64,000 nt of DNA, taken from the NCBI GenBank assembly GCA_946902875.1, contig OX336336.1, positions 25,561,558 through 25,625,557 on the forward strand. Reading direction: 5' to 3'. The notes under the pieces are model-generated. The model was not told the origin of the DNA and made no database searches. It saw only the letters and a list, made by a program, of their open reading frames with translations. The translations under genes were made by a program, and so were the position numbers. The DNA comes from Nematopogon swammerdamellus. Taxonomy: Eukaryota; Arthropoda; Insecta; Lepidoptera; Adelidae. Shown piece after piece: positions 679-44,400 of this stretch. Position 1 is the first letter of the stretch, and the number at the start of each line of letters is the position of its first letter.

Positions 679-765
679 GCGCTGCTGGAAACGCAACTGT
701 TCAAGCTGGCCGGTCTGAGTGCGGGCGTACTTTCAGTGTACATTGACTCATGCAAGAACTTGCCC
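679..765 (+). CDS. Esyt2: Esyt2 exon: start of C2B
   Basis: This 29-codon exon is bounded by the acceptor cgttgcag and the donor GTAAGT and is in phase 0 at both ends. It reads ALLETQLFKLAGLSAGVLSVYIDSCKNLP in two pieces: a short pre-domain stretch and the first beta strand of C2B (GVLSVYIDSCKNLP). The preceding exon is outside the window. Confidence 0.9.
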
Positions 766-3700
766 GTAAGTACCCCCTATGCTCTGGCTTACATTATTAT
801 TATAGATGTAGTATACACTGGCAGCATTAGCGCTCGGCTACACAAACGATTGTATTACCAACTAAACAGTTTATTTGAGTTGGGCATGACGGCCGACTTC
901 TCTCCAACCCAACTGTTTAGTCGTTGAGGACGGTTGGAACACGGACAATTGTCATTAGCTCTGCATAGTGCAGCATAACCCAACTTTTTAGTCAGCCGCC
1001 GTCTAAAAAGTTGGCCGCTGTAGGCGTTGTTCAACTTTTTAGTTGAGTTGTGGAGAGTCGGTGCCGACTAAACAGTTGAGTTGGCGTTGGCGCCCTCGTC
1101 ATTTTGCATGTATTTTTGTACTTACAACAAACAGCTGTTCTGCGTTTGAACATAGTACGGTCATTGAACCCGTACAATGCAAGTTACCTACTGTTACACA
1201 CAGATCTAGTGACCTAGTGACTTACTTACAACAAACAGCTGTTCTGCGTTTGAACATAGTACGGTCATTGACCCCATACAATGCAAGCTACCTACTGTTA
1301 CACACAGGTCTAGTGACTTTGTGACTTACTTACAACAAACAGCTACATGCTGCCGTTGTCTACTCCCTAAAAACCCCTAATAAAGACACTTTGCAATGAC
1401 ATGTTCAGAATACAAGTCACACTTGCGACAGAAGGGATTGACAAATTAGTTATATTATTGGCGCAGAGTGCCCGAACGCAGTCCAAGCCGGACCCGTACC
1501 TGACGCTGTCGCTGGGCCGGAAGACTGAGAACTCCGGCGTGCAGCTGCGCACCGCCAGCCCCGTGTACGAGATCGGACACTCCTTCCTCGTCACCAACCC
1601 CGAGACAGATACTCTGCGGCTCAAGGTACCCTGTTGATGCTTGTGACGCTTGCAAGTGCTCCAGTAAATTCACATCAGGGTTGTTGCTGATGCACAATTT
1701 CTTCACATCAGCTGATGCTGATGCTAATGCTGATTTTAATAATTTTCTTTAAAAAAAAGGGAAAAATACTTAACTATCTGAATATTATGAATTTATATCC
1801 AAAGTTTTGGTTGGTATTGAAATAAAAGATTGTGTTGTAATAATTTTGTGACATTTAATAAAACAAATCAAATCTGATACCCTTACCAGTTTAGTAATTA
1901 TCTTAGCAATTAAATTATTAGTATTGGATGAAACTTTGGAACTATTTGGAACTGTATGTCTGCTTTTTCGGCTTCAGCTCCACCCCTCAGCGGTCATGTC
2001 ACGACTCGAACATCAGCATTAATATCAGCATCGATCAATGCGGATGCTGATGCGATGCTGATGTTGAAATGGATGCTGAAGTTCCGCGGATGCTGATGCT
2101 GATGCTGATGTTCGCAACAACCCTGATTCACATACCCAGGGAGTGAGACGTTTGGGGTCTGCCCCGCAGCGGCGGTGCATGAACTTAATTTGATGTGTGC
2201 AAGATACAGTTTGCGAGGCCCTATCAATGTTGCCAATACTTCAACAACCTCATCAAATCGCAATAATACTGCCAGTGTATTATTGCAATATTCACTGCCT
2301 CTGTCCTGCTTTCCCATGTTGTGTCTAATAAAGGCTTTATAGTAAGCTTTAGTTTGAATTTGATTAAGTCTAAACATGATATTTTTCATGAATCAAAGCT
2401 GCATGAACATTCGAGGCGCGAGGCCCCTCGGGCCGCGAGGCCGTGGGCGGTCGCCCACGCCTTGCGCAGCCTCTGCTGCCCCGCCTCTCTCTGAAATGTA
2501 AAAGAGTTATAGCCACCAGGGCCGTCTCAAGGGCGGGGCGAGCGGGGCGGGCGCCCCGGGAGCCCTGCGTTAGAGGGGCGCCGCCGATTGTTAGGCCACA
2601 CAGGCTTTCCGCCGCCTAAGCTTTCTCTAAAATTACACGAGCCAAAAAAACACAGGATCACTCAGCGCAAGTGTGCGTTCTTCAGTATTGGCCATAAGTA
2701 TATTGCCCGGTCTGGTCTAAGTTTGGGCGACTCCGAAAAATTTTAGTGGGATTTTGGGCTACTTCAATAAGAAATTGATTTGCGCGGGGAGCGTCTAGCG
2801 GCTCCACGCGCGGCGAGCGGCAGCAGCGAGCGGGAGCGGCTTGTGTTTGCCCCGGGCACCTATTACTCCAGAGACGGGCCTGATAGCCACAATTGTTCTT
2901 CAGTCGGTTACTTTCGTGTTTTCGCGCTTGGATTATCCTCTCATCATCATCATCAGCCTGTATCGGTCCACTGCTGGACATAGGCCTCTCCCAAGGCACG
3001 CCACCACACGCGGTCATCCGCTCTTCTCATCCATCCACTCCCGGCTACCTTTTTTAGGTCATCTGTCCACCTAGTCGGGGGGCGTCCCACGCTACGTTTG
3101 CTTGTACGTGCCCTCCATTCGAGCACCCGTCTACCCCATCGGTTGTCGGGTCTGCGACAGATGTGCCCAGCCCACTGCCACTTCAGCTTGCTTATTTTCT
3201 TAGCAATGTCGACTACCTTAGTTCTTTGACGTATCACGTCGTTACGGATTTTATCGTCAAAGAAATGCCGAGCATTGCTCTTTCCATAGCTCGCTGAGCG
3301 ACTTTAAATTTCTGGACCAGGCCCATCGTCAGGGTCCACGTTTCCGCTCCGTACGTCATTACTGGCAGAACGCACTGATAGAAAACCTTCGTCTTCAATC
3401 ACTGTGGGATGGAGGATGAAAAGATGTGGATTATCCTCTGATTGTCTATAATTGTACTAATCTTACCATTATCTCTACAGAAGAAGAGATTATAGATTAC
3501 CGTGAGATAATCTTAACATTTGCGTAATCGGAGGATAATCCTTTTTAATTGGGCCTAAAAGTGAGTTCGTTTTTTCCGTCCAGTTCTGTGTAGCAGGCAC
3601 GACCAAAGGGAAGCACTGACGTGGCACGTAGTTCACATAGGTGTTTTTGGGGCTGACATCACGGATTTTGTAGGTTATACACGGTTTTGCAACCCCGAAC

Positions 3701-6700
3701 GTAAAACCCGAAAGGGGGTGATTCTGTACGTGAAATAGAACAACTTTTGTTCTACTTTTTAATTTGAAGAACACAAATTTTTTTCTCCATACATTTTCAG
3801 AAAAAGTATTTAAAATTTGCATGGAAAAACATTTTTTTTTTGTTTAAAAAAAAATTTTCCTTACATAAGTTGTTTATTTTCACATATACAATAACCCCCT
3901 TATGTCAGTTAAAAATATTACGGGGGCAACTGCAACACCGTGTATAGCCGACCGTATCAGTTTCCATAAAAAAAACTGAATAGACGAAACTGCGCCATAA
4001 CTCGTTGCCTGCCTGCAGCGGAGAAGTTGGTTTCACAACATGACTAAAAATGTGTGATTGTCGTTTGCAGGTGCTCGACCAGAAGACCGGCTCGTCGCTG
4101 GGGGAGTTGGACTACGCAGTGGCGCCGCTGCTGCGCCAGGCGGACCTCACGGTCATCATGCAGCCGCTCGCGCTGCACAAGTCCGGCCCGGAGTCCAAGG
4201 TCGTCATGTCCATGTGCCTGCGGGTGAGTGTTGCACCACATCACAGTCTTCTAGACCAGAAGACCGGCTCGTCGCTGGGGGAGTTGGACTACGCAGTGGC
4301 GCCGCTGCTGCGCCAGGCGGAACTCACGGTCATCATGCAGCCGCTAGCGCTCCACAAGTCCGGCCCCGAGTCCAAGGTCGTCATGTCCATGTGCCTGCGG
4401 GTGAGTGTTGCACCACATCACAGTCTTCTAGACCAGAAGACCGGCTCGTCGCTGGGGGAGTTGGACTACGCAGTGGCGCCGCTGCTGCGCCAGGCGGAAC
4501 TCACGGTCATCATGCAGCCGCTAGCGCTCCACAAGTCCGGCCCCGAGTCCAAGGTCGTCATGTCCATGTGCCTGCGGGTGAGTGTTGCACCACATCACAG
4601 TCTTCTAGACCAGAAGACCGGCTCGTCGCTGGGGGAGTTGGACTACGCAGTGGCGCCGCTGCTGAGCCAGGCGGAACTCACGGTCATCATACAGCCGCTA
4701 GCGCTCCACAAGTCCGGCCCCGAGTCCAAGGTCGTCATGTCCATGTGCCTGCGGGTGAGTGTTGCACCACATCACAGTCTTCTAGACCAGAAGACCGGCT
4801 CGTCGCTGGGGGAGTTGGACTACGCAGTGGCGCCGCTGCTGCGCCAGGCGGAACTCACGGTCATCATGCAGCCGCTAGCGCTCCACAAGTCCGGCCCCGA
4901 GTCCAAGGTCGTCATGTCCATGTGCCTGCGGGTGAGTGTTGCACCACATCACAGTCTCCTAGACCAGAAGACCGGCTCGTCGCTGGGGGAGTTGGACTAC
5001 GCGCTGGCGCCGCTGCTGCGCCGAGCGGACCTCACGGTCATCATGCAGCCGCTCGCGTTGCACAAGTCCGGCCCGGAGTCCAAGGTCGTCATGTCCATGT
5101 GCCTGCGGGTGAGTGTTGCACCACATCACAGTCTCCTCGACCAGAAGACCGGCTCGTCGCTGGGGGAGTTGGACTACGCAGTGGCGCCGCTGCTGCGCCA
5201 GGCGGACCTCACGGTCATCATGCAGCCGCTAGCGCTCCACAAGTCCGGCCCGGAGTCCAAGGTCGTCATGTCCATGTGCCTGCGGGTGAGTGTTGCACCA
5301 CATCACAGTCTCCTAGACCAGAAGACCGGCTCGTCGCTGGGGGAGTTGGACTACGCGCTGGCGCCGCTGCTGCGCCGAGCGGACCTCACGGTCATCATGC
5401 AGCCGCTCGCGCTGCACAAGTCCGGCCCGGAGTCCAAGGTCGTCATGTCCATGTGCCTGCGGGTGAGTGTTGCACCACATCACAGTCTCCTCGACCAGAA
5501 GACCGGCTCGTCGCTGGGGGAGTTGGACTACGCAGTGGCGCCGCTGCTGCGCCAGGCGGACCTCACGGTCATCATGCAGCCGCTCGCGCTGCACAAGTCC
5601 GGCCCGGAATCCAAGGTCGTCATGTCCATGTGCCTACGGGTGAGTGTTGCACCACATCACAGTCTCCTCGACCAGAAGACCGGCTCATCGCTGGGGGAGT
5701 TGGACTACGTAGTGGCGCCGCTGCTGCGCCAGGCGGACCTCACGGTCATCATGCAGCCGCTCGCGCTGCACAAGTCCGGCCCGGAGTCCAAGGTCGCCAT
5801 GTCCATGTGCCTGCGGGTGAGTGTTGCACCACATCACAGTCTCCTAGACCAGAAGACCGGCTCGTCGCTGGGGGAGTTGGACTACGTAGTGGCGCCGCTG
5901 CTGCGCCAGGCGGAACTCACGGTCATCATGCAGCCGCTCGCGCTGCACAAGTCCGGCCCGGAGTCCAAGGTCGTCATGTCCATGTGCCTGCGGGTGAGTG
6001 TTGCACCACATCACAGTCTCCTAGACCAGAAGACCGGCTCGTCGCTGGGGGAGTTGGACTACGTAGTGGCGCCGCTGCTGCGCCAGGCGGAACTCACGGT
6101 CATCATGCAGCCGCTCGCGCTGCACAAGTCCGGCCCGGAGTCCAAGGTCGTCATGTCCATGTGCCTGCGGGTGAGTGTTGCACCACATCACAGTCTCCTA
6201 GACCAGAAGACCGGCTCGTCGCTGGGGGAGTTGGACTACGTAGTGGCGCCGCTGCTGCGCCAGGCGGAACTCACGGTCATCATGCAGCCGCTCGCGCTGC
6301 ACAAGTCCGGCCCGGAGTCCAAGGTCGTCATGTCCATGTGCCTGCGGGTGAATGTTGCACCACATCACAGTCTCCTAGACCAGAAGACCGGCTCGTCGCT
6401 GGGGGAGTTGGACTACGTAGTGGCGCCGCTGCTGCGCCAGGCGGAACTCACGGTCATCATGCAGCCGCTCGCGCTGCACAAGTCCGGCCCGGAGTCCAAG
6501 GTCGTCATGTCCATGTGCCTGCGGGTGAGTGTTGCACCACATCACAGTCTCCTAGACCAGAAGACCGGCTCGTCGCTGGGGGAGTTGGACTACGCAGTGG
6601 CGCCGCTGCTGCGCCAGGCGGAACTCACGGTCATCATGCAGCCGCTCGCGCTGCACAAGTCCGGCCCGGAGTCCAAGGTCGTCATGTCCATGTGCCTGCG

Positions 6701-9700
6701 GGTGAGTGTTGCACCACATCACAGTCTCCTAGACCAGAAGACCGGCTCGTCGCTGGGGGAGTTGGACTACGTAGTGGCGCCGCTGCTGCGCCAGGCGGAA
6801 CTCACGGTCATCATGCAGCCGCTCGCGCTGCACAAGTCCGGCCCGGAGTCCAAGGTCGTCATGTCCATGTGCCTGCGGGTGAATGTTGCACCACATCACT
6901 GTGTCCTTACGTCGATGCCGTCACGCAGCGTGTAAGCGTCCACTGCTGGACATACGGCTTTCCAGGCTTATGGCTTTTCCTCCAGTCCTCCCGGCCTTCA
7001 GCGGTACGGAACGACTGCTTTCCGCCGACGCACTTGATGTCGTCGTCCCACCTGACGGGTGGTCTTCCCACACTCCGTTTTCCTGTCCACGGCCGCCAGT
7101 GTAGGACACGGTTACTCCAACGGTCGTCGTCTCTTCGGCTGACGTGCCCAGCCCACTGCCACTTGAGCTTAGTCACCCGGTATCCAATATCGACTACTTT
7201 GGTGCGTCGGCGGATTGCCTCGTGTACAATAAGGTATCGGATCGGTTGGGGAAAGGCTTCAGTCTGTGTTTTTCCCATGGGATTATTTAGAAATAACGGT
7301 ACAGCTATGGGGCCTCGATCTGGCATATGTACATGATCACTGTACTCGCAAGAGTGCGGGTGTAGACGTCTGGATTTTGTAGCTGCAAGGCTGGTATCTC
7401 TGGATGTCTATAAACAAAACGTAAAATTATAAAATGATAGTAAGAAGGTGTACAATAAAGTATATTTAATTATCATTCCATCATATTGCGCGTAGATACT
7501 GCGCGAGGCGGTACGCGAGGACGCGGAGGGTGAGGATGGTGCGGAGAGCGGTGAGGCGGGCGGGGCGCCGGCCGGGGAGGAGCGAGCTCCGCCGTCCAGC
7601 GCGACCGCCAGCGTCACCGACAGCGTCAGCACCAGCGCCTCCGGTTCGTACACGCACATTACAAGTTCACCCGCTGTTATGGGCTGGCATCACGGATGTC
7701 GGAGGTGATGTAGCCAACCGTGTCAGTTTCCATAAAAAAAAAAAAAAAGTTTTTTTGCGCTAGAAAGCTTTATTATTACACTAGCTTTTGCCCGCGGCTT
7801 CGCTCGCATGAAATTCGTATTTAAAAAGAAGAAAGTAACTAAGCCCGCCTTTATTTCGGCGCGCGGAACAATTTGGTTTGTATGAGAGCCACATCTTAGC
7901 ATAACTGGAGCAAAATTTTATTTAGCCTATCCTGTGTCCTGTATAGTTAAATGTGCTTGTACTATGTTTCATCGAATTCAGATGATCGGTTTAAAAGTTG
8001 TGGAAGAACATACATACATACAAAAAAGATTTCTAAAAATCGTAATTTTTTTTTTTTTTTTATTGAAACTGACACGGTTGGCTACATCACCTACAACATC
8101 CGTGATGTCAGCCCATAACACCGGGTGAATGTGATGCCACGTCAGTGCTTCCCTTCGGTCGTGCCGGCTACACTGAACTGGGCGGAAAACACAAACTATT
8201 TACAAAGCCGTTTCGACCGACCTTTCATTCTGTGCGGTGGTACCAACCCGGGTGGGTTAAACCCTACCACCTAGTAATATAAGAAGGGAGTCATATCCCT
8301 TAGTCGCCTTTTACGACATGCACGGGGAGAGATGCAGTGGGGCTATTCTTTTAAAGTACCGGCCCCACACGGTACAAAAATCAATTTAGCTTTAGTATTA
8401 TGCATAGAGTCCACAAACGCAATATCTCATAAAATAAATCAACTTACTCCATAACCGTCCCTTACAGATTTATTATTAGTATTTATGATTTAATCACACA
8501 TTTCTTTTTATATAAATTTTTCATTTTTACAAAATTAAAACCTAAAAGTTGTACAAAACAAACGGCGTTTTCACCACCGGCGGCGGTGTGAACCCAGGCT
8601 ACCGATAGCCGGGTCCCAGGGACAATGCGTGCAGTGTCGAGCAGGGCTGCGTTCTGTATCTGGCCCTTAATTATTATTATTTATACACTATAGCAGCTTG
8701 TTTGCTTGTTTTAACAATGTATTTTTAATTGTACCGTGTGGGGCCGGTACTTTAAAAGAATAGCCCCACTGCATCTCCCCCCATGCATGTCGTAAAAGGC
8801 GACTAAGGGATAAGGACAAGGTGCCGTGCTAAAGGGCGACAGGCTCGCCACCTCTCACCTTGGCACGGTACTGCCACCGAGTCATGCAGCGGGTGGGTCT
8901 TCGTGCCTTACTTGCTGCTTGATCGATTGAATCTTGTTCGAGTACTTTGCGAAACGTGGCTGTCCGTGTTGTGCTGTAATTTAACAGAGCTTTGCAGCAC
9001 AACACCGATTACTCTGCTTACCCCGATTGTCGGGATTCAGCGTGTGTGATATGTATGTATATGATGTATTTTTAATTTTTTATAAATTTTTTTTTTCTAT
9101 AAGGCGAAATATTGTAATTTGTCTTCACATTGAAATGCTCCGTACGCAGTGACCCCCAGCCCGGTGCGCAAGACTCCGCCGGCGCCGCTGCCGGCCGCCG
9201 CGGACTCGGCCAGGTTCCTGCAGGAGGAGCTCATCATCAAGGATACCGGTGAGAGATTCCTATATTCTGATATAGATTGCTGTTGTTTTGGTTTGGGGTT
9301 GGCTCTAGGCCTGCAAACTAATCCCGCTTGGTTGGGGACCTTCGTGCAAAACCCCGCAGTCTCCAGCTACCCTATGTCTTCCATGTTAGCCACAAGTCGA
9401 CCGGGGTGTCTGCAGGCCGCTTATCCCTTAGTCGCCTATTACGACATGCGTGGGGAGAGATGCAGTGGGACTATTCTTATTAAGTACCCACCCCACACAG
9501 TACATTCTGATATAGAACGAAGACCTCTGTTTCAAAAGTGAGAAGAGGACTCGCTAGGCTTAACTTGTCGGAAAAGAACGGGAGACCGTGCACTGAAATT
9601 TAGACCTCCTCAAATAGTTCAATAGTTCTCAATAGTTCTCCTCAAATACTTCTCTCGGTCGGGTGATCTTGGACTGAAGAGAAGGGTAAAGGGGGAGGGA

Positions 9701-12700
9701 GGGGGATTGTCTGCTATTGTGTATTGAAACTAATAAATAAAGCTTTTTTTTTTTATTTTTTTTTATGGAAACTGACACGGTTGGCTACATCATGACATCA
9801 CCTACAACATCCGTGATGTCAGCCCATAACACCGGGTGAACTTGGTGCCACGTCAGTGCTTCCCTTCGGTCGTGCCGGCTACACTGAACTGGACGGAGAA
9901 CACAAACTATTTACATAGCCGTTTCGACCGACCTTTCATTCAGTCCGGTGGTACTAATCTGGGCGGGTTAAACCCTACCACCTAGTAATATAAGAAGGGA
10001 GTCATATCCCTTAGTCGCCTTTTACGACATACACGGGGAGAGATGCAATGGGGCTATTCTTTTAAAGTACCGGCCTCACACGGTACAAGCTAAAAGATTA
10101 TTAGATTTTTAGAGTCGATTCCTCGAAGTTCTTCCTCGCCGTTAGTGGTCCTTTCAAAGTGTCTTCCATCTCGGTCCTGCATACATGGTGCACTGACCGA
10201 TACGAAGTGAACGCTGGTTTCTGCCTCCTCCCCCACATTGAGCGCACAGTGGGTCGTCACTAAGGCCAGCTATGTGGAGATGTATTTTTTTGTCTATCAC
10301 CTACTCTTAGTTATAAGTCTGTTTTTTTTTCACAGCACTGTTTTTTCTGTTGTCTTATGTGCGTACAATGATGGATTTATATTTTATTAAGTACTAATAA
10401 ATACGTGCATTATCATCATTCTGTATGCCGATGATCGGGGTAATCAATTTCAAAGGCAAGTCTCCTGTACCTTAGCGTACCTGTAGGTACCTACCGGGTA
10501 CCTTCTCGGAGTTGATGTGCTCTGGCGCACTGACTGAACCAGTTTACTTAAAAAAAAAGAGTAATCTGTGTTGTGCTGCAACAAATCGGATATTTTTTAT
10601 TAATATAACTTTTTAAACCTAAAAAACCTGTTATGAACACATCAGCTAGAGCTGCTTGTTTCTTAAAATATAAATAAATAAATAAACATGTGCCAGACTC
10701 TGCGGAGCTGCAGAGCGAGCGGCCGGCACCGCAGACGACGGCGACGGTGGCGGCGGAGGTGGCGGCCGCCGCGGCCTCCGCCCCCGACCCCTCCCCGCCC
10801 GGCTCGCCCAAGCTCGTGCACCGCAACTCCACCGTCACCTCGTGAGTTTCAACACCACCACCATTACATTATTGGAAGGGGCCGACCAGGATGTCCCTCA
10901 TCGAAATAAAATTTTGTCACCTTCGGCAGCTCGGTGGCGCTATTGATCAATGTCTCATCGCGAAATTAAGCATACAGGAAGTCAGAACTTTGATGCGTGG
11001 CCGTTCGATCGTTAAGGCTATGCATGGTTCGGATTCCACATAAATCTGTAGGTCCTTTACTAGGTGGTAGGGTTTAACCCATTGTGACTGAATGAAAGGT
11101 CGGTCGAATAGGCTATGTAAATACTTGTTGTTTTCTTTACAATTCCATCAGTACAATGGATTTTCTATGGTCCTAGTGCGCAGACCACATCAATAACTAC
11201 ACCATTTCAATAGTATACACATCCTCGAAACTTTGCTAAAACGTTCACTTTACCATTCGACTTAATAAGCTTACGTGCCCTTTTGACAAAACACACGCGA
11301 CGTGTGGTTACATAAGTCGATGTTGATCGGTTGGCAGTGAGTTTAGAATCACTCTCAAAGGAGTTGAATTTGGTAGGAGTTATGGATCACATTTCAGAGA
11401 TGAAGGGCGAAGATGTTGGGTGCAAGAATTGATCCTTGAGGCACACACCCCTTAGTTAGTATATCTCACTTCAGATAAGATGCCACCAACTCTCGCTTAA
11501 TAATGTCGGCTCACCAAGTATTTCCATGTCAGCAGTTTTCCCATTGTACTGAGATGTTCCAGTTTCATGAGTAGGCATAATATGTCGGTTCACTTTGTCG
11601 AATGCTTGTTTGAAGTTCAAATATTACATCGACTGGGGTTTTGTGATCTGCGAGTGTGCATTATTATAAGTGTGATTGTCATCTGCGAGTGTGATTATAA
11701 GTGCAATTGGGAGCCACGAGTGCAATTGTCATAAGGACTTGCTTGTACTTGGCGCAGGTCGGCCGGTGAAGCGGGGCTGGGTCGGATTCAACTGACGCTG
11801 CGCTACTCGGTGCAGCGGCAGACTCTAGTGGTCGTCGTGCACAAGATCATGTGAGTATTATTATTGCCTGTCCCGTCCTGATGCGTGTACTCAGAAGAAT
11901 AAGTCTCTCATTGGACGAGTCATCATCATCATCATCCCCGTGTACCTATGTCATTTAAAGGCGACTAAGCACAAGATGCCGTACTAAAGGGCGTACTACA
12001 GGGTAGCCAACTCTCTCCTTGTTACGGTCCTTCGACAGTCATAGACAGGTGGGTCTTCGTGCCTTACTTGCTGCTTGATAGTTTATCTTGTCCGAATGCT
12101 TTGCTAGACGTGGTGGTCGGTGTTGTGCTGTATCTATCAGAGTTTCCTCTCCAGTTTTCTTGTCCTAATATTTTGTTATAAATATAGTGGTAGGTGTTGT
12201 GCTATAATTTAGAAGACTGACCGACTACATTTTTCCAAACATCCTCCCAATTTTCTGCTTGTTTACATACATTTCATACATACATATCACACACGCTGAA
12301 TCCCGACAATCGGGGTAAGCAGAATAATCGGTGCTGTGCTGCAAGAACTCTGGTAAATTACAGCACAACACCGACCACCACGTTTCGAAAATTATTCGAA
12401 CAAGATTCAATCGATCAAGCAGCAAGTAAGGCACGAAGACCCACCTGCTGCATGACTCGGTGGAAGCACCATGCCAAGGTGAGAGGTGGCGAGCCTGTCG
12501 CCCTTTAGCACGGCATCTTGTCCTTATCCCTTAGTCGCCTTTCACGACATGCACGGGGAGAGATGCAGTAGGGCTATTCTTTTTAAGTACCGGCCCCACA
12601 CGGTACTGCTTTCTGCTTGTTTACTTTTATTATTTAACTTTCGTTAGTATTATGTTTCTTTGATTCTTCTTCTTTTGTTGCTACCTTATTATGTTTTCAA

Positions 12701-15700
12701 TGAAGACAGGTTGACTGGCAGAGATTGCCATAGGTAATAAGTTCCCCTTTTGTAAAATTTATATTTAAGTGCAATAAAATATATTTCTATTCTATTCTAT
12801 TTAATAGGTACTATGGGGCTGGCATAGTCGCTAGGCGGCTAAAGTCCTATTCAAATACAGATTTTTAAAAAACCGGCCAAGTGCGAGTTGAGCTCGCGCA
12901 CCGAGCGTTCCGTATCGCCATGTCATGGTTAGCGCCACTCACGCCATCTATGGCGCGTTATGAAATGCTTCATATTAGGTCAAATTCATGATTATTGTTG
13001 TTGTTCGGACTCGTTCTCCGCGCTTAAGCCCACTCCATTGTGGGCCTTTTGCGCGTCCTACGGCATTACTCCAACCAGCCGAGTTCTTCCAGGAGGCGGC
13101 ACACTCTCTTTGATGATTATGATCATGATTAGTTAAAATGCTTCATACTCAATTCGGCAGATGGCGCGCGCGCATACACTTTTTGGTTTCTTTTATGGGA
13201 ACCCCGTGAATTTTTTACTTTTTCTTATTTTTATTATTTGTTGTTATATCGGCCATATTAACACATATTCTGTGAAAATTTCAACAGGCTACCTATTACG
13301 GTTCAAGAGATACAGCCCTCGGACGGACGGACGGACGGACAGACAGACAGACGGCGTAGGCTTAGTAATAGGGTCCCGTACCGGATACGGAACCCTAAAA
13401 AGCCAAAAAATCCATTACATGTCTACTCTTTCAGTGCAAGTTTAGTTTACCCGAGCGAAGCCGGGTTCGCAGCTAGTATACAATAAACTGACTGACTACA
13501 TTTTTCCAAGCATGCTGTCCCTCAGACGCTAGAGATGGTTTGTAGAATTGCTTAAATAGATACTATGGGGCTGACATCGTCGCTAGGCGGCTAAAGTCCT
13601 ATTCAAATAAACAAAAAAAAAACCCTTAGACTTGCGACCGTACCACAGATTACTTAATAGTTACTTCGTAACAGATAAATCACTCCATAGAAAAAGTTCC
13701 ATACCTACGGCTTTAATAGCCTAATGCTTCACGTCGCCAATCGCTGCGTGCGAAAATGTACCTAAACGATTGAGTGTAAAGTGCATTATTGCTTTGCAGC
13801 TGCGCGCAGTTGCGTGGGCGAGCTTGTAGGTATGCTTCGCGCGGCTGACGAATTTCTACTGAATAAGACCGCCGGCGGACCGCCAGTAGTTAGCGCGCGC
13901 AAGTACATAGAGTGCGTGAGGCCTGACCGTACTGTAACTTGTTGAGTGATATGGCTTGCGTGACGACAGGAACATCCCGCTGAAAGACCCGAGCAACATC
14001 CCCGACCCGTACGTGAAGCTGTACCTCCTGCCGGGCCGCGGCAAGGAGACGAAGCGCAAGACGGCCGTCATGCGCGACAACTGCGACCCCGTCTACGACG
14101 AGAGCTTCGAGTACTCGCTCGCCGGCCCGGAGCTCGCCGCCCGCCGGCTGGAGGTGACCGTCGCATCGCACAAGGGCTTCCTCGGCGGCAGCCCTGTCAT
14201 CGGTCAGGTGCGTGCACACATAGCTCCACGACAATAGCGACCCCGTGTACGACGAGAGCTTCGAGTACTCGCTCGCCGGACCGGAGCTCGCCGCCCGCCG
14301 GCTGGAGGTGACCGTCGCATCGCACAAGGGCTTCCTCGGCGGCAGCCCTGTCATCGGTCAGGTGCGTGCACACATAGCTCCACGACAACAGCGACCCCGT
14401 GTACGACAAGAGCTTCGAGTACTCGCTCGCCGGCCCGGAGCTCGCCGCCCGCCGGCTGGAGGTCACCGTCGCATCGCACAAGGGCTTCCTCGGCGGCAGT
14501 CCGGTCTTCGGTCAGGTGCGTGCACACATAGCTCCACGACAACTGCGACCCTTTGTACGACGAGAGCTTCGAGTACTCGCTCGCCGGCCCGGAGCTCGCC
14601 GCCCGCCGGCTGGAGGTGACCGTCGCATCGCACAAGGGCTTCCTCGGCGGCAGTCCTGTCATCGGTCAGGTGCGTGCACACATAGCTCCACGACAACTGC
14701 GACCCTGTGTACGACGAGTGCTTCGAGTACTCGCTCGCCGGCCCGGAGCTCGCCGCCCGCCGGCTGGAGGTGACCGTCGCATCGCACAAGGGCTTCCTCG
14801 GCGGCAGTCCTGTCATCGGTCAGGTGCGTGCACACATAGCTCCATGACAACTGTGACCCCGTCTACGACGAGAGCTTCGAGTACTCGCTCGCCGGCCCGG
14901 AGCTCGCCGCCCGCCGGCTGGAGCTGACCGTCGCATCGCACAAGGGCTTCCTCGGCGGCAGTCCTGTCATCGGTCAGGTGCGTGCACACATAGCTCCACG
15001 ACAACTGCGACCCTGTGTACGACGAGAGCTTCGAGTACTCGCTCGCCGGCCTGGAGCTCGCCGCCCGCCGGCTGGAGGTGACCGTCGCATCGCACAAGGG
15101 CTTCCTCGGCGGCAGTCCTGTCATCGGTCAGGTGCGTGCACACATAGCTCCACGACAACTGCGACCCTGTGTACGACGAGAGCTTCGAGTACTCGCTCGC
15201 CGGCCCGGAGCTCGCCGCCCGCCGGCTGGAGGTGACCGTCGCATCGCACAAGGGCTTCCTCGGCGGCAGTCCTGTCATCGGTCAGGTGCGTGCACACATA
15301 GCTCCATGACAACTGCGACCCCGTCTACGACGAGAGCTTCGAGTACTCGCTCGCCGGCCCGGAGCTCGCCGCCCGCCGGCTGGAGGTCACCGTCGCATCG
15401 CACAAGGGCTTCATCGGCGGCAGCCCTGTCATCGGTCAGGTGCGTGCACACATAGCTCCATGACAACTGCGACCCCGTCTACGACGAGAGCTTCGAGTAC
15501 ACGCTCGCCGGCCCGGAGCTCGCCGCCCGCCGGCTGGAGGTCACCGTCGCATCGCACAAGGGCTTCCTCGGCGGCAGCCCTGTCATCGGTCAGGTGCGTG
15601 CACACATAGCTCCACGACAACTGCGACCCCGTGTGCGACGAGAGCTTCGAGTACTCGCTCGCCGGCCCGGAGCTCGCCGCCCGCCGGCTGGAGGTCACCG

Positions 15701-17313
15701 TCGCATCGCACAAGGGCTTCCTCGGCGGCAGCCCTGTCATCGGTCAGGTGCGTGCACACATAGCTCCACGACAACTGCGACCCTGTGTACGACGAGAGCT
15801 TCGAGTACTCGCTCGCCGGCCTGGAGCTCGCCGCCCGCCGGCTGGAGGTGACCGTCGCATCGCACAAGGGCTTCCTCGGCGGCAGTCCTGTCATCGGTCA
15901 GGTGCGTGCACACATAGCTCCACGACAACTGCGACCCTGTGTACGACGAGAGCTTCGAGTACTCGCTCGCCGGCCCGGAGCTCGCCGCCCGCCGGCTGGA
16001 GGTGACCGTCGCATCGCACAAGGGCTTCCTCGGCGGCAGTCCTGTCATCGGTCAGGTGCGTGCACACATAGCTCCATGACAACTGCGACCCCGTCTACGA
16101 CGAGAGCTTCGAGTACTCGCTCGCCGGCCCGGAGCTCGCCGCCCGCCGGCTGGAGGTCACCGTCGCATCGCACAAGGGCTTCATCGGCGGCAGCCCTGTC
16201 ATCGGTCAGGTGCGTGCACACATAGCTCCATGACAACTGCGACCCCGTCTACGACGAGAGCTTCGAGTACACGCTCGCCGGCCCGGAGCTCGCCGCCCGC
16301 CGGCTGGAGGTCACCGTCGCATCGCACAAGGGCTTCCTCGGCGGCAGCCCTGTCATCGGTCAGGTGCGTGCACACATAGCTCCACGACAACTGCGACCCC
16401 GTGTGCGACGAGAGCTTCGAGTACTCGCTCGCCGGCCCGGAGCTCGCCGCCCGCCGGCTGGAGGTCACCGTCGCATCGCACAAGGGCTTCCTCGGCGGCA
16501 GCCCTGTCATCGGTCAGGTGCGTGCACACATAGCTCCACGACAACTGCGACCCCGTGTGTGACGAGAGCTTCGAGTACTCGCTCGCCGGCCCGGAGCTCG
16601 CCGCCCGCCGGCTGGAGGTGACCGTCGCATCGCACAATGGCTTCCTCGGCGGCAGCCCTGTCATCGGTCAGGTGCGTGCACATAACTTTTGTACCGTGTG
16701 GGGCTGGTACTTTAATAGAATAGCCCCACTGCATCTCTCCCCGTGTATGTCGTAAAAGGCGACTGAGGGATATGACTCCCTTCTTATATTACTAGGCGGT
16801 AGGGTTTAACACGCCCGGGTTGGTACCACCGCACTGAATGAAAGGTCGGTCGAAACAGCTATGTAAATAGTTTGTGTTTTCTGTCCAGTTCAGTGTAGCC
16901 GGGACGACCGAGGGGAAGCACTGACGTGGCACCAAGTTCACCTGGTGTTATGGGCTGACATCACGGATGTTGTAGGTGATGTAGCCAACCGTGTCAGTTT
17001 CCATAAAAAAAAATCATTACACAACACTACACTGCATTTACACTCACTAGACACACACACACATGTTTGATCCTACTAAACTAAAGTCTAATCAGGGAAA
17101 CAAAATGTGACCAGACTTCAATGTATGTACGTACAACTTATGTTTTATCTGTTTGTCATTAGGCTGTCTGTTTTCTAACAAATAAATAAATAATACAAAC
17201 CCAATAAAACAGCGTTGTGTTTCCTGCAGGCAATCGTGAACTTGTCCGAGTACGACTTCTCGCAAGCGCAGACGTTCTGGTTCGACCTGCTACCCGAGGC
17301 GGCGCACGACTAG
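679..17313 (+). CDS. Esyt2: Extended synaptotagmin (Esyt2), 3' part, nine exons
   Basis: Extended synaptotagmins are ER-anchored proteins that tether the ER to the plasma membrane; their SMP domain moves lipids and their C2 domains bind calcium and phosphoinositides. This window holds only the C-terminal part: C2B (exons at 679, 1467 and 4071), an acidic then Ala/Pro/Ser-rich linker (7496, 9150, 10697) and C2C (11758, 13970, 17230). Exon phases join without a break (0-0-0-1-1-2-2-0) and give about 400 aa ending in the stop at 17311. Visible family marks are VLSVYIDSCKNLP, SKPDPYLTLSLG, SLGELDYAVAPLL, IPDPYVKLYLLPGRGKETKR (the polybasic strand of C2C) and FWFDLLPEA. The SMP and C2A exons must lie before position 1. 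Two exons are embedded in tandem arrays, described separately. Identification is by motif recognition and is firm at family level; the symbol follows the single Drosophila orthologue. Confidence 0.93.
850..1095. mobile_element. Foldback/MITE-like segment
   Basis: Repeated and inverted blocks of ccaactaaacagtt, aactgtttagtcg and aactttttagtt lie within 250 bp. The outer pair (ccaactaaacagttt near 858 and aaacagttgagttgg near 1070) suggests a small foldback element; no target duplication was resolved. Confidence 0.45.
1121..1344. repeat. 104-bp tandem duplication
   Basis: cttacaacaaacagctgttc begins at 1121 and 1225, and a partial third copy at 1329. The two full copies are nearly identical. 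Confidence 0.9.
1467..1625 (+). CDS. Esyt2: Esyt2 exon: middle of C2B
   Basis: This exon of 53 codons lies between the acceptor ggcgcag and the donor GTACCC, phase 0 to 0. It begins SARTQSKPDPYLTLSLGRKT, the classic C2 'DPY' strand, and ends DTLRLK, which joins directly to VLDQKTG of the next exon. A hAT MITE sits 50 bp downstream in the intron. Confidence 0.92.
1676..2125. mobile_element. hAT-type MITE, 450 bp, with 8-bp target duplication
   Basis: The element begins CAGGGTTGTTGC and ends GCAACAACCCTG, a 12-bp terminal inverted repeat. It is flanked on both sides by ATTCACAT (1668-1675 and 2126-2133). CAGGG termini and an 8-bp duplication are typical of hAT transposons. The interior holds GATGCT repeats near both ends and no transposase, so it is non-autonomous. 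It lies in the Esyt2 intron after the exon at 1467. Confidence 0.88.
2134..2928. other. Esyt2 intron, GC-rich blocks
   Basis: Contains GC-rich, low-complexity blocks at about 2410-2480 and 2515-2590 (cagggccgtctcaagggcgg) that look like a decayed repeat, and another at 2785-2840. No exon was found. Confidence 0.4.
2942..3426 (-). mobile_element. 5'-truncated RTE-like LINE with 13-bp target duplication
   Basis: On the minus strand the frame reads LKWQWAGHICRRPDNRW, GRRVLEWRARTSKRSVGRPP and TRWTDDLKKVAGSGW, the well-known C-terminal tail of RTE-type LINEs, followed by a (TGA)n tail at the left edge. TGGATTATCCTCT flanks it at 2929-2941 and 3427-3439. Only the 3' 485 bp is present. Confidence 0.85.
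3440..4070. other. Esyt2 intron with foldback and SINE tail remnant
   Basis: The flank GGATTATCCTC upstream of the LINE pairs with GAGGATAATCC at about 3531, suggesting an older small foldback into which the LINE inserted. A diverged SINE tail (ttccgtccagttctgtgtag to ggctgacatcacggatt) covers about 3575-3680. The rest is AT-rich. Confidence 0.5.
4071..4223 (+). CDS. Esyt2: Esyt2 exon: end of C2B, first unit of array A
   Basis: The acceptor gtttgcag ends at 4070 and the first donor, CGG|GTGAGT, follows position 4223, giving 51 codons in phase 0. The peptide VLDQKTGSSLGELDYAVAPL and onward supplies the last strands of C2B. This is the only copy with the true upstream acceptor and the leading GTGCTC. 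Fifteen more copies follow. Using the donor of unit 16 instead would give a 936-codon exon, 4071-6878, still in frame, so the donor choice sets the protein length. I favour the first donor because it gives a normal C2 domain. Confidence 0.85.
4077..6908 (+). repeat. Array A: 16 tandem copies (177 bp) of an Esyt2 exon plus 5' splice site
   Basis: The motif gaccagaagaccggctcg recurs every 177 bp from 4077 to 6732, making 16 units. Each unit has 147 bp of exon (4077-4223 in unit 1) and 30 bp of intron beginning with the donor. The period is 59 codons and no unit has a stop, so the original frame stays open throughout (a second frame is open too). Units differ by point changes: GAC or GAA at the Asp/Glu site, gcagtg or gtagtg, and an agc/cgc change in unit 4. 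Donors are GTGAGT except GTGAAT in units 13 and 16. Units 6-7 and 8-9 repeat as a dimer (ALAPLLRRADL then AVAPLLRQADL). The array ends against an RTE-like LINE fragment. Confidence 0.95.
6915..7250 (-). mobile_element. RTE-like LINE 3' fragment
   Basis: The minus strand encodes RRTKVVDIGYRVTKLKWQWA, GHVSRRDDDRW and KRSVGRPPVRWDDDIK, the same RTE C-terminal tail as at 2942 but of another subfamily. It abuts the last unit of array A. Confidence 0.8.
7496..7643 (+). CDS. Esyt2: Esyt2 exon: acidic linker
   Basis: The acceptor attgcgcgtag and donor CCG|GTTCGT bound 148 nt entering in phase 0 and leaving in phase 1. The peptide starts ILREAVREDAEGEDGAESGE and ends in a Ser/Thr-rich run. ILRE directly continues MCLR from the C2B exon, as the family requires. 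The segment is low-complexity, acidic and probably disordered. The donor GTTCGT is weak. Confidence 0.85.
7677..7748 (+). mobile_element. SINE tail-1 fragment
   Basis: Only the last about 60 bp of the common tail (gttatgggctggcatcacgg to gtgtcagtttccat) and an A-run remain, 34 bp after an Esyt2 exon. Confidence 0.8.
7781..7850 (-). mobile_element. Helitron-type 3' end
   Basis: The plus strand reads ACTAGCTTTTGCCCGCGGCT, so on the minus strand a GC-rich stem-like segment is followed by a CTAG terminus before T. This matches Helitron 3' ends (short hairpin, CTRR) widespread in Lepidoptera. The 5' end was not found. Confidence 0.55.
8047..8376 (-). mobile_element. SINE, head A + tail 1
   Basis: Reading on the minus strand it runs from GTACCGTGTGGGGCCGGTAC (head A) through gtcgtaaaaggcgactaagg and a common body to ttccat plus a long A-run. 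It is a near full-length copy of the commonest family in the window, about 330 bp. Confidence 0.85.
8482..8668 (-). mobile_element. R4/Dong-like LINE 3' fragment between TTA repeats
   Basis: The 3' UTR and last codons match the element at 59925-62699 (ggcggcggtgtgaacccagg, gtgcagtgtcgagcagggct). TTATTATTA sequences flank it on both sides (about 8468 and 8669). Confidence 0.7.
8733..9100 (+). mobile_element. SINE-like, head A + tail 2
   Basis: Head A (gtaccgtgtggggccggtac to ctaagggata) is followed by a different body, aaggacaaggtgccgtgcta, ggtgggtcttcgtgccttac and agcacaacaccgattac, ending at gtatgtatatg. Tail 2 also occurs at 12236-12606 (minus). Confidence 0.8.
9150..9248 (+). CDS. Esyt2: Esyt2 exon: Pro/Ala linker
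   Basis: This 99-nt exon lies between the acceptor cgtacgcag and donor CG|GTGAGA, phase 1 to 1. It reads VTPSPVRKTPPAPLPAAADS then ARFLQEELIIKDTG. The Ser-Pro sites make it a plausible phosphorylated linker (inference). A head-A/tail-3 SINE-like element begins about 35 bp downstream. Confidence 0.85.
9283..9510 (-). mobile_element. SINE-like, head A + tail 3
   Basis: On the minus strand head A is followed by aagcggcctgcagacacccc, a body containing gttttgcacgaaggtcccca and a terminal (CAA)n. Other copies are at 22052-22292 (+) and 37615-37843 (-). Confidence 0.8.
9752..10086 (-). mobile_element. SINE, head A + tail 1
   Basis: A near full-length minus-strand copy with an A-tail at its left end. 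The sequence catcatgacatcacc near 9790 carries a small internal insertion. Confidence 0.85.
10110..10290 (-). pseudogene. LINE C-terminal zinc-knuckle fragment
   Basis: The minus strand encodes HLHIAGLSDDPLCAQCGGGG then QCTMYAGPRWKTL before stops. This pattern resembles the Cys-rich tail after the RNase H domain of I-type LINEs. It is short and degraded. Confidence 0.5.
10697..10841 (+). CDS. Esyt2: Esyt2 exon: Ala/Pro-rich linker
   Basis: The acceptor tgtgccag and donor TC|GTGAGT bound 145 nt, phase 1 to 2. It encodes DSAELQSERPAPQTTATVAA, then an alanine run and PSPPGSPKLVHRNSTVTS. The composition is GC-rich and low-complexity, typical of the region between C2B and C2C in this family. Confidence 0.85.
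10925..11135 (+). mobile_element. Diverged SINE with tRNA/5S-like head
   Basis: Contains cggcagctcggtggcgc, a degraded 5S-like middle and catggttcggattccac, followed by the tail-1 start (taggtggtagggtttaaccc). It is truncated at the 3' side. Confidence 0.6.
11270..11650 (-). pseudogene. Decayed LINE reverse transcriptase fragment
   Basis: In broken minus-strand frames one can read pieces resembling DFKQAFDKVN and GVPQGSILAPN of jockey-type reverse transcriptases, with several stops and frameshifts. Call made by eye; moderate certainty only. Confidence 0.45.
11758..11850 (+). CDS. Esyt2: Esyt2 exon: start of C2C
   Basis: This 93-nt exon, phase 2 to 2, lies between the acceptor ggcgcag and the donor AT|GTGAGT. 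It encodes SSAGEAGLGRIQLTLRYSVQ then RQTLVVVVHKIM. GRIQLTLRYS followed by LVVVVHK is the hallmark first strand pair of the E-Syt C2C domain. Confidence 0.93.
12236..12606 (-). mobile_element. SINE-like, head A + tail 2
   Basis: Full minus-strand copy of the family at 8733: head A at the right end, tail 2 to the left, ending in a TATG-rich tract near 12270. A partial relative lies at 11940-12130. Confidence 0.8.
12868..13400 (+). mobile_element. Interspersed repeat 'accggccaagtgcgag', with nested LINE tail
   Basis: It starts aaaaccggccaagtgcgag and ends gtaccggatacggaacccta after a GGAC/CAGA microsatellite. The same termini occur at 21508-21850 and 56802. At 12990-13120 it is interrupted by a minus-strand 3' tail of the RNase-H LINE (ggactcgttctccgcgct to gccgagttcttccaggaggc). 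Class unknown to me; common in Lepidoptera. Confidence 0.7.
13440..13477 (+). mobile_element. Helitron-type 3' end
   Basis: ACCCGAGCGAAGCCGGGT forms a short stem, followed by tcgcagCTAG|T at 13473-13476. This is the hairpin plus CTRR terminus expected of a Helitron. Confidence 0.6.
13480..13969. other. Esyt2 intron before the C2C exon
   Basis: A short repeat ctatggggctgacatcgtcg at 13562 recurs from 12809. Otherwise unique sequence up to the acceptor at 13969. Confidence 0.5.
13970..14207 (+). CDS. Esyt2: Esyt2 exon: core of C2C, contains first unit of array B
   Basis: The acceptor cgtgacgacag ends at 13969 and the first donor, CAG|GTGCGT, follows 14207. The 238 nt continue from phase 2 and end in phase 0. 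The peptide runs NIPLKDPSNIPDPYVKLYLL through the basic strand GRGKETKRKT and YDESFEYSLAGPEL to GFLGGSPVIGQ. Its 3' 133 bp are the founder of array B. Only this first donor keeps the frame into the last exon: in-frame read-through reaches a TAG at 14235 after VRAHIAPRQ. Confidence 0.92.
14075..16685 (+). repeat. Array B: 17 tandem copies (154 bp) of an Esyt2 C2C exon end plus 5' splice site
   Basis: The motif cgacaactgcgacc recurs every 154 bp from 14075 to 16539, so 17 units. Each unit holds 133 bp of exon and 21 bp of intron (gtgcgtgcacacatagctcca). Since 154 is not a multiple of three, every added unit shifts the frame, unlike array A. No internal unit has a usable acceptor. A higher-order repeat is visible: five units (770 bp) from about 15005 recur from about 15775 with the same private variants, ctggagctc at about 15050/15820, ttcatcggc at about 15410/16180 and tacacgctcg at about 15498/16268. 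A head-A SINE lies just beyond the last unit. Confidence 0.95.
16692..17012 (+). mobile_element. SINE, head A + tail 1, at the end of array B
   Basis: Full copy from gtaccgtgtggggctggtac to ttccataaaaaaaaa, starting a few bases after the last 154-bp unit. Confidence 0.88.
17230..17313 (+). CDS. Esyt2: Esyt2 last coding exon
   Basis: The acceptor tttcctgcag leads into AIVNLSEYDFSQAQTFWFDL then LPEAAHD and stop TAG at 17311-17313. GQ|AIVNL joins in phase 0 to the first donor of array B. The FWFDL motif is the normal final strand of E-Syt C2C. Confidence 0.93.
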   Translation, partial: AIVNLSEYDFSQAQTFWFDLLPEAAHD

Positions 17314-35108: not shown

Positions 35109-35795
35109 GTAAGTACTTTCATTCAATTTGATAGCATTTTTCGCTTGAATTTCAGTAACAAACATCGGCGTAAATATGTATGGAGAGCTCTTTTCTGCTT
35201 ACCCACCATAGGTCGACTATCGTGTTGGATGCAGTTAGCTCTTGTAATTTTTTTTATTTATTGATAAATATGTATGTTAAATGTATACAGATATTTCATG
35301 CATTCTGCCTTATTGCCAAAGGACATTTCTTCTAGTCAACCTCAGCAGGTTTCCTCGTTCAATATTCGTTTATCGCGCTTTTTTCATTCAACCAGTACCT
35401 ACCGGTTTTTACTTTTGAGCGACTCTAAAGGAATTAATTTCTTTAGGTCATGCGTCTACCGGGAATTAGTCTTGTTATGCTTAGCATTAACAAAATTAAT
35501 TCATAATGAATACCCCGTTAGCATTTAGCACTGCTAAGCGCCCTGATGAATAAAAATTAATGCTAAATGCTAAGCAATAATCACATTTAATTTTAATTAG
35601 CATTGCTGTTTCGTTCGTAAAACTTTGTTGGTTCGTTTGTTTTGGAACGCACAAAGCAATGAAGTATGTGCTATTTATCTGTGGTACTGCTAAATGCTAA
35701 ATGCTATATAGCGCCTGCGCTCCGCTGCTAGCTAGCTAGCTAGCATCTAAATGCGAAATGCGATGCGATCATGCGAGTGAGGGGTCGGAATTATC
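35109..35795. other. AT-rich spacer with 'aatgctaa' repeats
   Basis: Words such as taaatgctaa, gcattagc and a gctagctagctagctagc run occur in both orientations from 35475 to 35775, suggesting a degraded palindromic MITE. Confidence 0.45.
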
Positions 35796-35798
35796 ATC

Positions 35799-36300
35799 TG
35801 TCACGTGATCATTAGTTTTGGTCATATCTACAGAACCACTGGACTTAGACCCATCGTGTTGGTACTCAATCTGAACGTCTCGATGAGATCTATCCATCTG
35901 TCACATTAACTATTGTTTTGGTCATAACTCGAGAACCACTGGTGCTAGACCCATCGTGTTGGTACTCAAACTTCAGGTCTCGGTGAGATCTATCCATCTG
36001 TCACATGAACTTTTGTTTTGGTCATAACTCGAGAACCACTGGTGCTAGATCCATCGTGTTGGTACTCAAACTTTAGGTCTCGGTGAGATCTATCCATCTG
36101 TCACATGAACTTTTGTTTTGGTCATAACTCGAGAACCACTGGTGCTAGACCCATCGTGTTGGTACTCAAACTTCAGGTCTCGGTGAGATCTATCCATCTG
36201 TCACATGAACTTTTGTTTTGGTCATAACTCGAGAACCACTGGTGCTAGACCCATCGTGTTGGTACTCAAACTTTAGGTCTCGGTGAGATCTATCCATCTG
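35799..36300. repeat. 100-bp tandem repeat, five copies
   Basis: gagatctatccatctg recurs at 100-bp spacing (35885, 35985, 36085, 36185, 36285). Unit 1 is diverged; units 2-5 are nearly identical. Confidence 0.93.
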
Positions 36301-36636
36301 TTGCGCGACCATCTCTCGAGACACATGTTAGTTCTTTAGTTCTTTAGTTCAACAATAACAATGTAAATGTCAACAATGTAAACAGTAACAATGTAAATGT
36401 CGTAAATTGTGCTTTTAAATTTAATTCAATTGTTCAAAAGTTACCAAATGAAAATTTTAATATAGATACCGATCTATAAATAAATAATTAAGTAAATTAT
36501 TGTTCTGTTTCAAATATATGTTTCTATTACAGACTACACAGCCTTTCATTTGTTATTTTATTAACCCTTATATAACGAATTCACACCGTCAAACTGACAG
36601 AGAGACGCATGGTACATTTTATAAGGCTCTAGCTGC

Positions 36637-41483: not shown

Positions 41484-44400
41484 TTAATTCACAATTATGA
41501 TATTGTTATAAGAACTACATCGTTCACATGTAAAATTATGAATAGTTTTTTGTGTGACTCTATTTTTTAAACAATTATGGTGAAATAAATATTTACAGTG
41601 AACACATTGCACCATGGCATCAGTAAGAGGTTTTCGACATGAACAATGTACTTTGTCAAAAATAAATTCATGAATGAATGGCGTCGAATAGCTGTGCCGC
41701 TGAATTGCGGGGAATTCTTCAAGGCAATTTTGCTGGAGTGCCATGTGCAGATGTGATCTTAACTGATTATCAATTAAAGTTACTTTGCATGGATCTTTTT
41801 CAGCACAAAGTAATTTTGCATAGGCTATGGAGTACAATCCACAATTGTAACCATTCGGCTGTTGACTAACATCATGAACTCTAACAATTATTTTTGTAAT
41901 ATTTGTATGAAGTCTATTTAAGCTACTAGCTATTGAAATAACATCAGGATGAATAGTGGTGTATAAAGAATCATATTGGTCTATTATAAGGCGATTGTCT
42001 TGAATATGTCCTGATATTGTATTCCAGTGTTGGTTATCTAAATTGTTTATCTGTATAAATGAGCCAATTTCATAACGAAACAGAGGCGGCTTTGAAGAAG
42101 AGAATAGTGTGTTTTGGAGCCCGCCTGCTAAGGAGTGTTGCCTTCTAAGTAAATCTAAAGATTTATTAATTATCTCATCATCTAACCACGTATGGTTCTG
42201 CAAAATTTGTGAGTGCCTGACTGAAATGGACGATTCTAAGTTTGCATATAAAAAGCTGACTGGAGTGGCACTTGAAGAAGATTCTATATCTCGCTTTGAC
42301 GCGTGGCTCGAACTCGAAGTTAACGCTGAGTTCACCTCATGTATGCTATTTGGCTGTGTGTCAACAATGTCAAAATTTACAGGTGCTGATGTATCTTTGA
42401 CTTCATTTGTGATAATGGTTGTATCAAATTTTAACATTTTAATTTTTCTTCTGTTGGAGGGTTTTGGAGCTACTCGTTTTTTGCCTATTGCTGTTAATAC
42501 AGATCCTTTTGGTCTTCCGCGAACTGTAACTCTAGTTGGAAATACTATTTTACCAATGGAAGGGGAGGTGGTAAGTGCATTGGATGAAATTGGTGTTATA
42601 TCACGAAGTGTCACATCATTGTCCAGACATTCCAAATTTATTTCATTAGGACATGGCGAACTAGATTTAGTAGATGTATCAGAAGTAATTTGTTTCACGG
42701 AACCAGACCATTCAATTACTAAGTTTTCTAATATTTTCATTCTTTCTTTAAATTTTGTTTCTCCAGAACTTTTCAAAATCTCTGACATTTTTTTAAGAAT
42801 ATTTGATGATTGTAGGTACTTTTCAGTTTCCCTATTGTTGTAATATGTGGTTGTTCCTAATTCTCTAGGGGTTGTTTTCATACTGTTTTTAAGATTGTTA
42901 AGTGTTTGCATGTAATATTCTTTTCTCCATCTATTGATTACTAAATTTGCTTCAAAAAAATTATACTTTATATGTAATCTGAGTCCAAAGATGTGAGCAC
43001 ACGGTAGTTGATGCATTAAATAATACTTGCAAGTGCAGCTAAAGAGCGATGTATTAGTATTACTGTCCTGTGTTTCAAATTTTACGTTAAATTTATTTTG
43101 AGAGATTGTTGGCATAGTTTCTACAGTACAATCACGAGTGAGTGATTTTATCATTTGTGAAAAAATTTCTTTGGAAGCGGAATCGGTTGCAACTGAATAT
43201 ACTTCATCTATTATTTCTTTTGGTATAGGGGAATTAGTTAAATGTAATTTCTTATACGCTTGATCAAACCCAGACTTTAACATTTTTTCTCTTTTACGCT
43301 GTAGAAATGATTTCAAAGAATAGTAGAAGTCACATAATCTAGAATAACGGCTTATGGCTTGTTTCAACTTTTGGTTTAAGCTCTCGATCCGATTGTTCGT
43401 TGTATCACCCATATTAAAAATGTTACAACGACAATATGCCACCCATGATTCATAACAAGGTAGCCATCTATTTAGAAAATCCATATGTATTTTACTCCCG
43501 TTAAATTCTGAAGAAAACAATTCAAAATTTTGGTCAAAAATATTCTTGTCTTTGGCATACGCCATGCCTTCGAGATATGATTTTGCTTTATCTTTCATTG
43601 TGTGAGGAATATTAGATGTGTTTACCATCTGTTTAAATGATTTCAAAACATGAAAAAGACAAAGTTGTGATTTAGAATTTGGAAAATAATTTTTCAATAC
43701 AGATATTTCAGTTAAGTCCTTATCTGTCATAAATGACTTAACATTAATATAGTCTGGATTGTAACGGATAAAATATTGAATAAACTTTTCTACATATTCT
43801 TTAGTTTCATTTGCGACCAGACAAAATGCAACGGGAATTGACTGATTCATGCCATCAACGGCTAATATAATATATAGAGGCATGCGAGTATTCACTAAAC
43901 AATATGTGGCATCTATTAAAATGTGTTCCGGATATCGACTAAAGAAATGTCTCATCCAAGAAAATTGAAAGTACAACATTTTTACCTCACCCTCCACTAT
44001 ATACTTTTCAACAATCATACCACCATCTGAATTCTGATCATCTTCTAAAGCTTTAAGAAAAGAAGCATCCTCAGTCATTCCTCCCCTCACAACAGCACTT
44101 ATTTTGTTTTTTAAATTGTGTAAATACTTGGTGGACAGACTAATGTTGTGTTCAGACTGAAAGAAATCTTTAACACTATTAGCTTTAAATGAATGTTTAA
44201 CAAAACTTTCAGCTTGTTTACTTAAATTATTTTTATCCCTTCCTAATATTACGTTGCCTTCATTGTCAATAGTTACACGGGGAATCAAGTAATTTTTTCT
44301 ACGGAAGTTACTATTAGCTGAGTACATATTAAACAATACTTCCGTCAGGGGATGAACTGCTACACCATTTTCATCTACGTGCTTCGCTTGAAATTGATCA

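Follow-up and report, generated by a model that had tools for sequence, protein, structure and literature searches.

The window analysed here, a 64,000-nucleotide stretch of the Nematopogon swammerdamellus genome (contig OX336336.1), contains near its start an extended-synaptotagmin-2-like gene that is covered in its 3′ part (679..17313, forward strand), the 5′ part lying beyond the window edge. A nine-exon model on that strand with GT/AG borders, comprising exons 679–765, 1467–1625, 4071–4223 (exon 3), 7496–7643, 9150–9248, 10697–10841, 11758–11850, 13970–14207 (exon 8) and 17230–17313 with the stop codon, yielded an open frame of 401 amino acids. Pfam recognized C2 in two stretches of the predicted protein. 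The C2B part matched the E-Syt2 chains 4npj and 4p42 in the PDB and the C2C part matched 2dmg, while the top single chain for the predicted protein was synaptotagmin-7, which has two C2 domains. KIAA1228 is another name for ESYT2. Among the matches listed (120 of 189), the closest protein was E-Syt2 of the bagworm moth Eumeta, with 58% identity over 99%. The PDB chains, the C2 domains and the Eumeta protein agree with the assignment to Esyt2 made in an earlier note on this DNA; judged by these matches, the locus is an extended-synaptotagmin-2-like insect gene, nearest to Lepidoptera.

A quick tree built from 24 rows placed the window protein outside the remaining lepidopteran rows, its end branch measuring 0.62 against a median of 0.22. 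Its amino acid make-up was an outlier (GARP 0.312, FYMINK 0.152) relative to the comparison set of 21 rows without the two outgroups (GARP 0.203–0.247, FYMINK 0.194–0.239). The protein is enriched in residues with GC-rich codons, beyond the range of these 21 lepidopteran-like rows. Judged by tree and composition, the source may be a moth lineage that branched early, a close relative of the moths, or a lineage that evolves fast. Two long open frames lie elsewhere in the window, both on the reverse strand. One (41484–44720) encodes 1078 amino acids, and its best relative, P0235 (37% over 74%), carries PF02902, PF10551, PF00628 and PF21056; by these families, the frame is presumably a transposase of the MULE type that also contains Ulp1 protease and PHD parts. 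The other (53104–54981, 625 amino acids) is a putative reverse transcriptase of the LINE type, joined to RNase H.

Two exon ends of the E-Syt gene continue as tandem arrays

Two tandem arrays on the forward strand, array A (4077..6907; TRF 177 bp × 16.0, score 5298; 16 donors) and array B (14075..16682; TRF 154 bp × 16.9, score 4838; 17 donors), had the top two TRF scores among 29 rows and were the largest two of the 24 arrays in the window. Array A derives from exon 3 (4071..4223), which encodes the end of C2B, and array B from exon 8 (13970..14207), which encodes C2C; checks of frame and donor showed that both source exons are intact and hold donor 1. Each unit of array A consists of the final 147–148 bases of exon 3, beginning 5–6 bases inside the exon, plus 29–30 intron bases, and each unit of array B of the final 133 bases of exon 8, beginning 105 bases inside it, plus 21 intron bases. 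The donor borders, marked by a slash, read CGG/GTGAGT at exon 3 and CAG/GTGCGT at exon 8. Copy 1 of each array runs on from the real exon and the remaining copies occupy the next intron, giving 15 extra copies in array A and 16 in array B. In a unit-by-unit layout, the copies aligned without gaps, with a mean pairwise difference of 2.9% in array A (15 full units) and 3.1% in array B (16 full units). All 33 copies (16/16 and 17/17) keep the donor GT; copies 13 and 16 of array A have gtgaat in place of gtgagt. The central description in the earlier note, namely two sequence-unrelated arrays of one exon-end-plus-donor architecture in one gene, with 16 and 17 donors behind a single acceptor each, was therefore borne out, the acceptors being those of the gene model; only the end of array B shifted, from 16685 to the TRF end of 16682.

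In both arrays, variants are common to groups of copies in runs, and array B contains two identical five-unit blocks of 770 bp each (14999..16538, forward strand), with 14999–15768 matching 15769–16538 at 770/770 bases. The block could be taken as a sign that the assembly multiplied single exon ends. Such an artefact would have had to occur twice at exon edges, and it would have to account for copies that are about 3% apart and for shared variants in both arrays, which makes it the least probable reading that we considered. A real array would be expected to show shared variants and an exact block of this kind, but how many copies array B truly has could be an assembly matter: either the five units were duplicated as a block very recently, or the assembly has the copy number wrong. 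The shared-variant runs and the exact repeat fit local turnover.

A dispersed repeat that we label SINE-like, with 30 BLAST matches in the window including itself, adjoins array B at 16687–17013. The idea that one kind of mobile element had made both arrays was discarded, as the sequence after array A matches only two weak sites elsewhere in the window, unlike the SINE-like repeat behind array B.

Later donors would extend the protein in array A and truncate it in array B

We then considered what the use of later donors would do to the product. In array A, the frame is kept to the normal end from 16/16 donors, each unit adding 59 amino acids up to 885, and the read-through of 954 codons is stop-free. 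In array B, all later donors lead to an identical truncated product of 383 amino acids, with a stop ahead of the last exon, so that the full protein needs donor 1 in array B unless the units are spliced as cassettes. Cassettes are conceivable on paper: taken from the AG in ATAG/CTCC, 16 units of array B measure 138 nt each and are in frame and open. It might thus be proposed that the copies serve functional isoforms, with later A donors inserting in-frame 59-residue steps between C2B and C2C, or with array B supplying 138-nt cassette exons. Only 0.29 stops (array A) and 0.50 stops (array B) are expected among the variants, however, and the open frames therefore carry little information. The AG in ATAG/CTCC and the other copy-start AGs lie outside the six best-scoring AG phases in both arrays, as scored with a matrix of the nine native acceptors; the strong AG within each B unit (99.8th percentile) sits 17 nt before the donor and is present in the native exon too. 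Moreover, a 59-residue unit would be just the end of a C2 domain.

The isoform reading also draws on the variants themselves, which lean synonymous. Of the 34 variants in the exon parts, 17 were nonsynonymous, whereas base changes of the same kinds would be expected to yield 23.6 (P = 0.007); the corresponding counts were 7/16 in array A (P = 0.037) and 10/18 in array B (P = 0.074). This sample comprised 15 of the 16 A units and 16 of the 17 B units, the incomplete last units being dropped, and 11 B units entered the split into private and shared variants. Private variants were nonsynonymous and synonymous in ratios of 3:4 in array A and 9:4 in array B, and shared variants in ratios of 4:5 and 1:4. 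As the numbers are small and the copies not independent, the signal of selection is suggestive. The synonymous lean would be unexpected for plain intronic junk unless the variants passed through a functional exon, and one reading is that the variants common to several copies originated in such an exon or had been through it. The private variants of array B, by contrast, look neutral and speak against functional copies. Taken with the acceptor scores, we regard functional isoforms as quite improbable, if marginally less so than an assembly artefact. Most likely, donor 1 is used in both arrays and the arrays are removed with the intron. For the 120 protein relatives listed, of 245, coverage of a query with about 11 read-through units stayed at or below 21%, so that the repeat is absent as protein from those listed; this is weak support for removal with the intron, since most annotations would hide an intronic array.

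The arrays resemble exon stuttering described in chicken

The earlier note knew of no described case of such an arrangement. That view can no longer be maintained, as Hron et al. (2026) describe in chicken, under the name exon stuttering, exon edges that are tandemly copied with a donor or acceptor into the adjacent intron (PMC12954441). In that study, sequence stuttering was found in 115 chicken genes, where it affects 236 introns, and dot chromosomes carry 190 of these introns; the exon parts measure 20–187 bp (median 36 bp) and occur in 1–44 copies (median 4), their source lies at most 1 base from the exon border in more than 90% of cases, 183 of 192 such introns differ in length among birds, and the repeats are described as less organized (PMC12954441). 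Stuttering is there tied to GC-rich genes, the other vertebrates are represented by GC-rich gerbil genes alone (data not shown), and the mechanism is a matter of speculation by the authors (PMC12954441).

We reran the screen of Hron et al. with its printed program options on this one gene, comparing 9 exons with 8 introns. All 31 matches fell in the adjacent intron after the exon, in plus orientation and on the donor side, with no distal match; 30 extend to the last exon base and one ends 4 bases before it. In 20/20 controls with shuffled introns, the maximum was 26.3 bits, compared with at least 42.1 bits for the 31 real matches, showing that the array matches exceed the chance level of these controls. 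The coding exons are intact, copy 1 supplying the 401-residue frame, and neither array crosses into the following exon. The adjacent intron, the exon border, the intact exon and the GC-rich gene, all of them features described for exon stuttering, were thus found in the E-Syt gene.

As in the chicken cases, one end of a coding exon, together with the splice site there, is repeated in tandem in the adjacent intron of a GC-rich gene while the exon stays intact, and the exon parts of 133–148 bp in 15–16 extra copies lie inside the chicken ranges (PMC12954441). The host, by contrast, is an insect, without dot chromosomes, and the units are long and very regular. This regularity counts against stuttering, as do the synonymous lean of the exon-part variants, the high GC3 elsewhere in the window and the GC content of the two source exons, which other exons of the gene exceed. 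The coding sequence has a GC content of 0.68 and a GC3 of 0.89. Exons 3 and 8 each reach a GC content of 0.68, compared with 0.76, 0.72 and 0.78 in exons 4, 5 and 6, and GC3 is 0.98 in exon 3, 0.95 in exon 8 and 0.96 in exon 6. GC content by itself does not single out the two source exons. High GC3 is also seen beyond the E-Syt gene, in a reverse-strand exon at 31461–31844 (0.85 over 65 codons) that resembles the nuclear cap-binding protein CBP20, and high GC3 may thus be genome-wide. In the literature searched, which covers few subscription journals, PMC12954441 was the only paper found under the name of stuttering, and exon stuttering in an insect was not found. The kind of array is already known, and the insect instance is the new element here.

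Other systems share single features with the arrays. Units of 154–177 bp at the E-Syt gene consist mostly of conserved coding exon and occur as arrays twice in one gene. Turri et al. 1995 reportedly concerns a tandem array that likewise gives one transcript many donors; the gene is reportedly 6-16/IFI6, with a far shorter unit of about 12 bp. Mutually exclusive exons of the Dscam type are whole exons with their own acceptor and donor; the array units hold a donor and part of an exon, and their copy-start AGs score low, though on a matrix of nine sites only. In human duplicated genes, internal tandem repeats span exon–intron boundaries, as here, and can alter splicing; they average a 30-bp unit × 4 and lie in segmental duplications, compared with 154–177 bp and 16–17 copies in the E-Syt gene (PMC2812944). 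Intron gain in Drosophila similarly involves tandem duplication of exon sequence bearing a splice signal, a proto-splice site, but there the duplication makes a new intron, whereas the E-Syt arrays lengthen an existing one by many copies (PMC2891723).

The two arrays share a candidate breakpoint motif

The earlier note had proposed a shared mechanism or a shared fragile feature at donors. The exon-side breakpoint contexts of array A (TGCTCGAC, 4072..4079) and array B (TGCGCGAC, 14071..14078), both on the forward strand, lie in TGC(T/G)CGAC (TGCKCGAC) and have 7/8 bases in common, an agreement matched by 861 of 702705 pairs of CDS positions and, in the same codon phase, by 546 of 234630. The junctions, CTCC[T/A]CGAC, agree at 8/9 bases; among 400000 random junction pairs, 172 agree as well as this. 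With both arrays on the donor side, these matches could indicate a donor-specific mechanism, in which duplication across the donor is driven by the motif, with TGCKCGAC at the exon breakpoint and CTCC[T/A] at the intron breakpoint, or by some other feature of the exon end.

Several results temper this proposal. The motif was recognized post hoc, and the CTCCTCGAC form of the array A junction (CTCCT/CGACC) follows just 3 of 15 copies (6, 8 and 9), the others reading CTAGAC, in CTAGACC forms. Since the exon before copy 1 carries C, we took the C in this junction as original. On that assumption, exon GTGCT/CGACC and downstream intron GTCCT/TACG would share CT as a 2-base microhomology, while the array B junction CTCCA/CGAC shows no microhomology with exon ATGCG/CGAC; the intron after the last B copy is altered beside the SINE-like repeat. 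Across the window, the motif has 8 matches where 2.8 would be expected; among the six outside arrays A and B, one (36302) abuts the end of another array (P = 0.068 by boundary coverage). That array, the third with such an end (35795–36309; 100 bp × 5.1), stops directly ahead of the TGCGCGAC motif, with a chance of about 0.07 among six matches.

Blind placement of the units on the gene minus its extra copies gave donor-only placements in 9.35%/9.07% of cases, acceptor-only in 9.32%/9.05% and intron-only in 78.5%/80.0%, so that both arrays would be donor-only in about 0.8% (product). Two donors of two would have a chance of about 1 in 4 if only arrays that spare an intact exon copy were tolerated. 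Two of the seven arrays between 370 and 16682 hold a donor. Folding was ordinary at both array donors (z = −0.03 and 0.07), compared with values down to −2.09 at the other exon ends of the gene (nine exon ends), and we discarded folding-driven fragility at donors. In addition, the chicken cases occur at donors or acceptors (PMC12954441). A mechanism specific to donors is thus unneeded and unlikely, though better placed than functional isoforms; from the earlier proposal, there remains the shared TGCKCGAC motif as a weak, post hoc lead to a shared mechanism.

Discussion

Both arrays are probably exon stuttering, with donor 1 in use and the copies tolerated because one intact exon remains. This reading draws its support from the screen (31/31), the intact frame, the GC-rich coding sequence, the shared variants and the truncations from later B donors. 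The process would start when a GC-rich exon edge is duplicated in tandem at its own site, the duplicated segment reaching a few tens of bases beyond the donor, and would go on with growth and partial homogenization through unequal exchange or conversion among copies. Copy 1 would remain the real exon with acceptor and donor. Copies 2–16 of array A and 2–17 of array B would lie behind a working donor and be spliced out as intron upon use of donor 1, a choice that exon definition and the order of transcription would favor. Tolerance of this kind, by which copy 1 keeps the gene functional, may also account for the donor-side layout of both arrays.

A broader proposition, which we hold tentatively at somewhat less than even chances, is that exon stuttering extends beyond birds and reflects an instability tied to GC content in animal genes generally. 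If it is true, the E-Syt gene would supply two independent events from an invertebrate, and many more cases would be expected across the rest of this GC3-rich genome, mainly at donor edges, since copy 1 stays functional when a donor is duplicated. Because its units are long and regular and its gene GC3-rich, an insect case would allow GC content to be told apart from the history of bird chromosomes. Furthermore, the sharp breakpoints of arrays A and B could be used to study the mechanism, and the arrays offer a natural test of how the spliceosome chooses among 16–17 near-identical donors.
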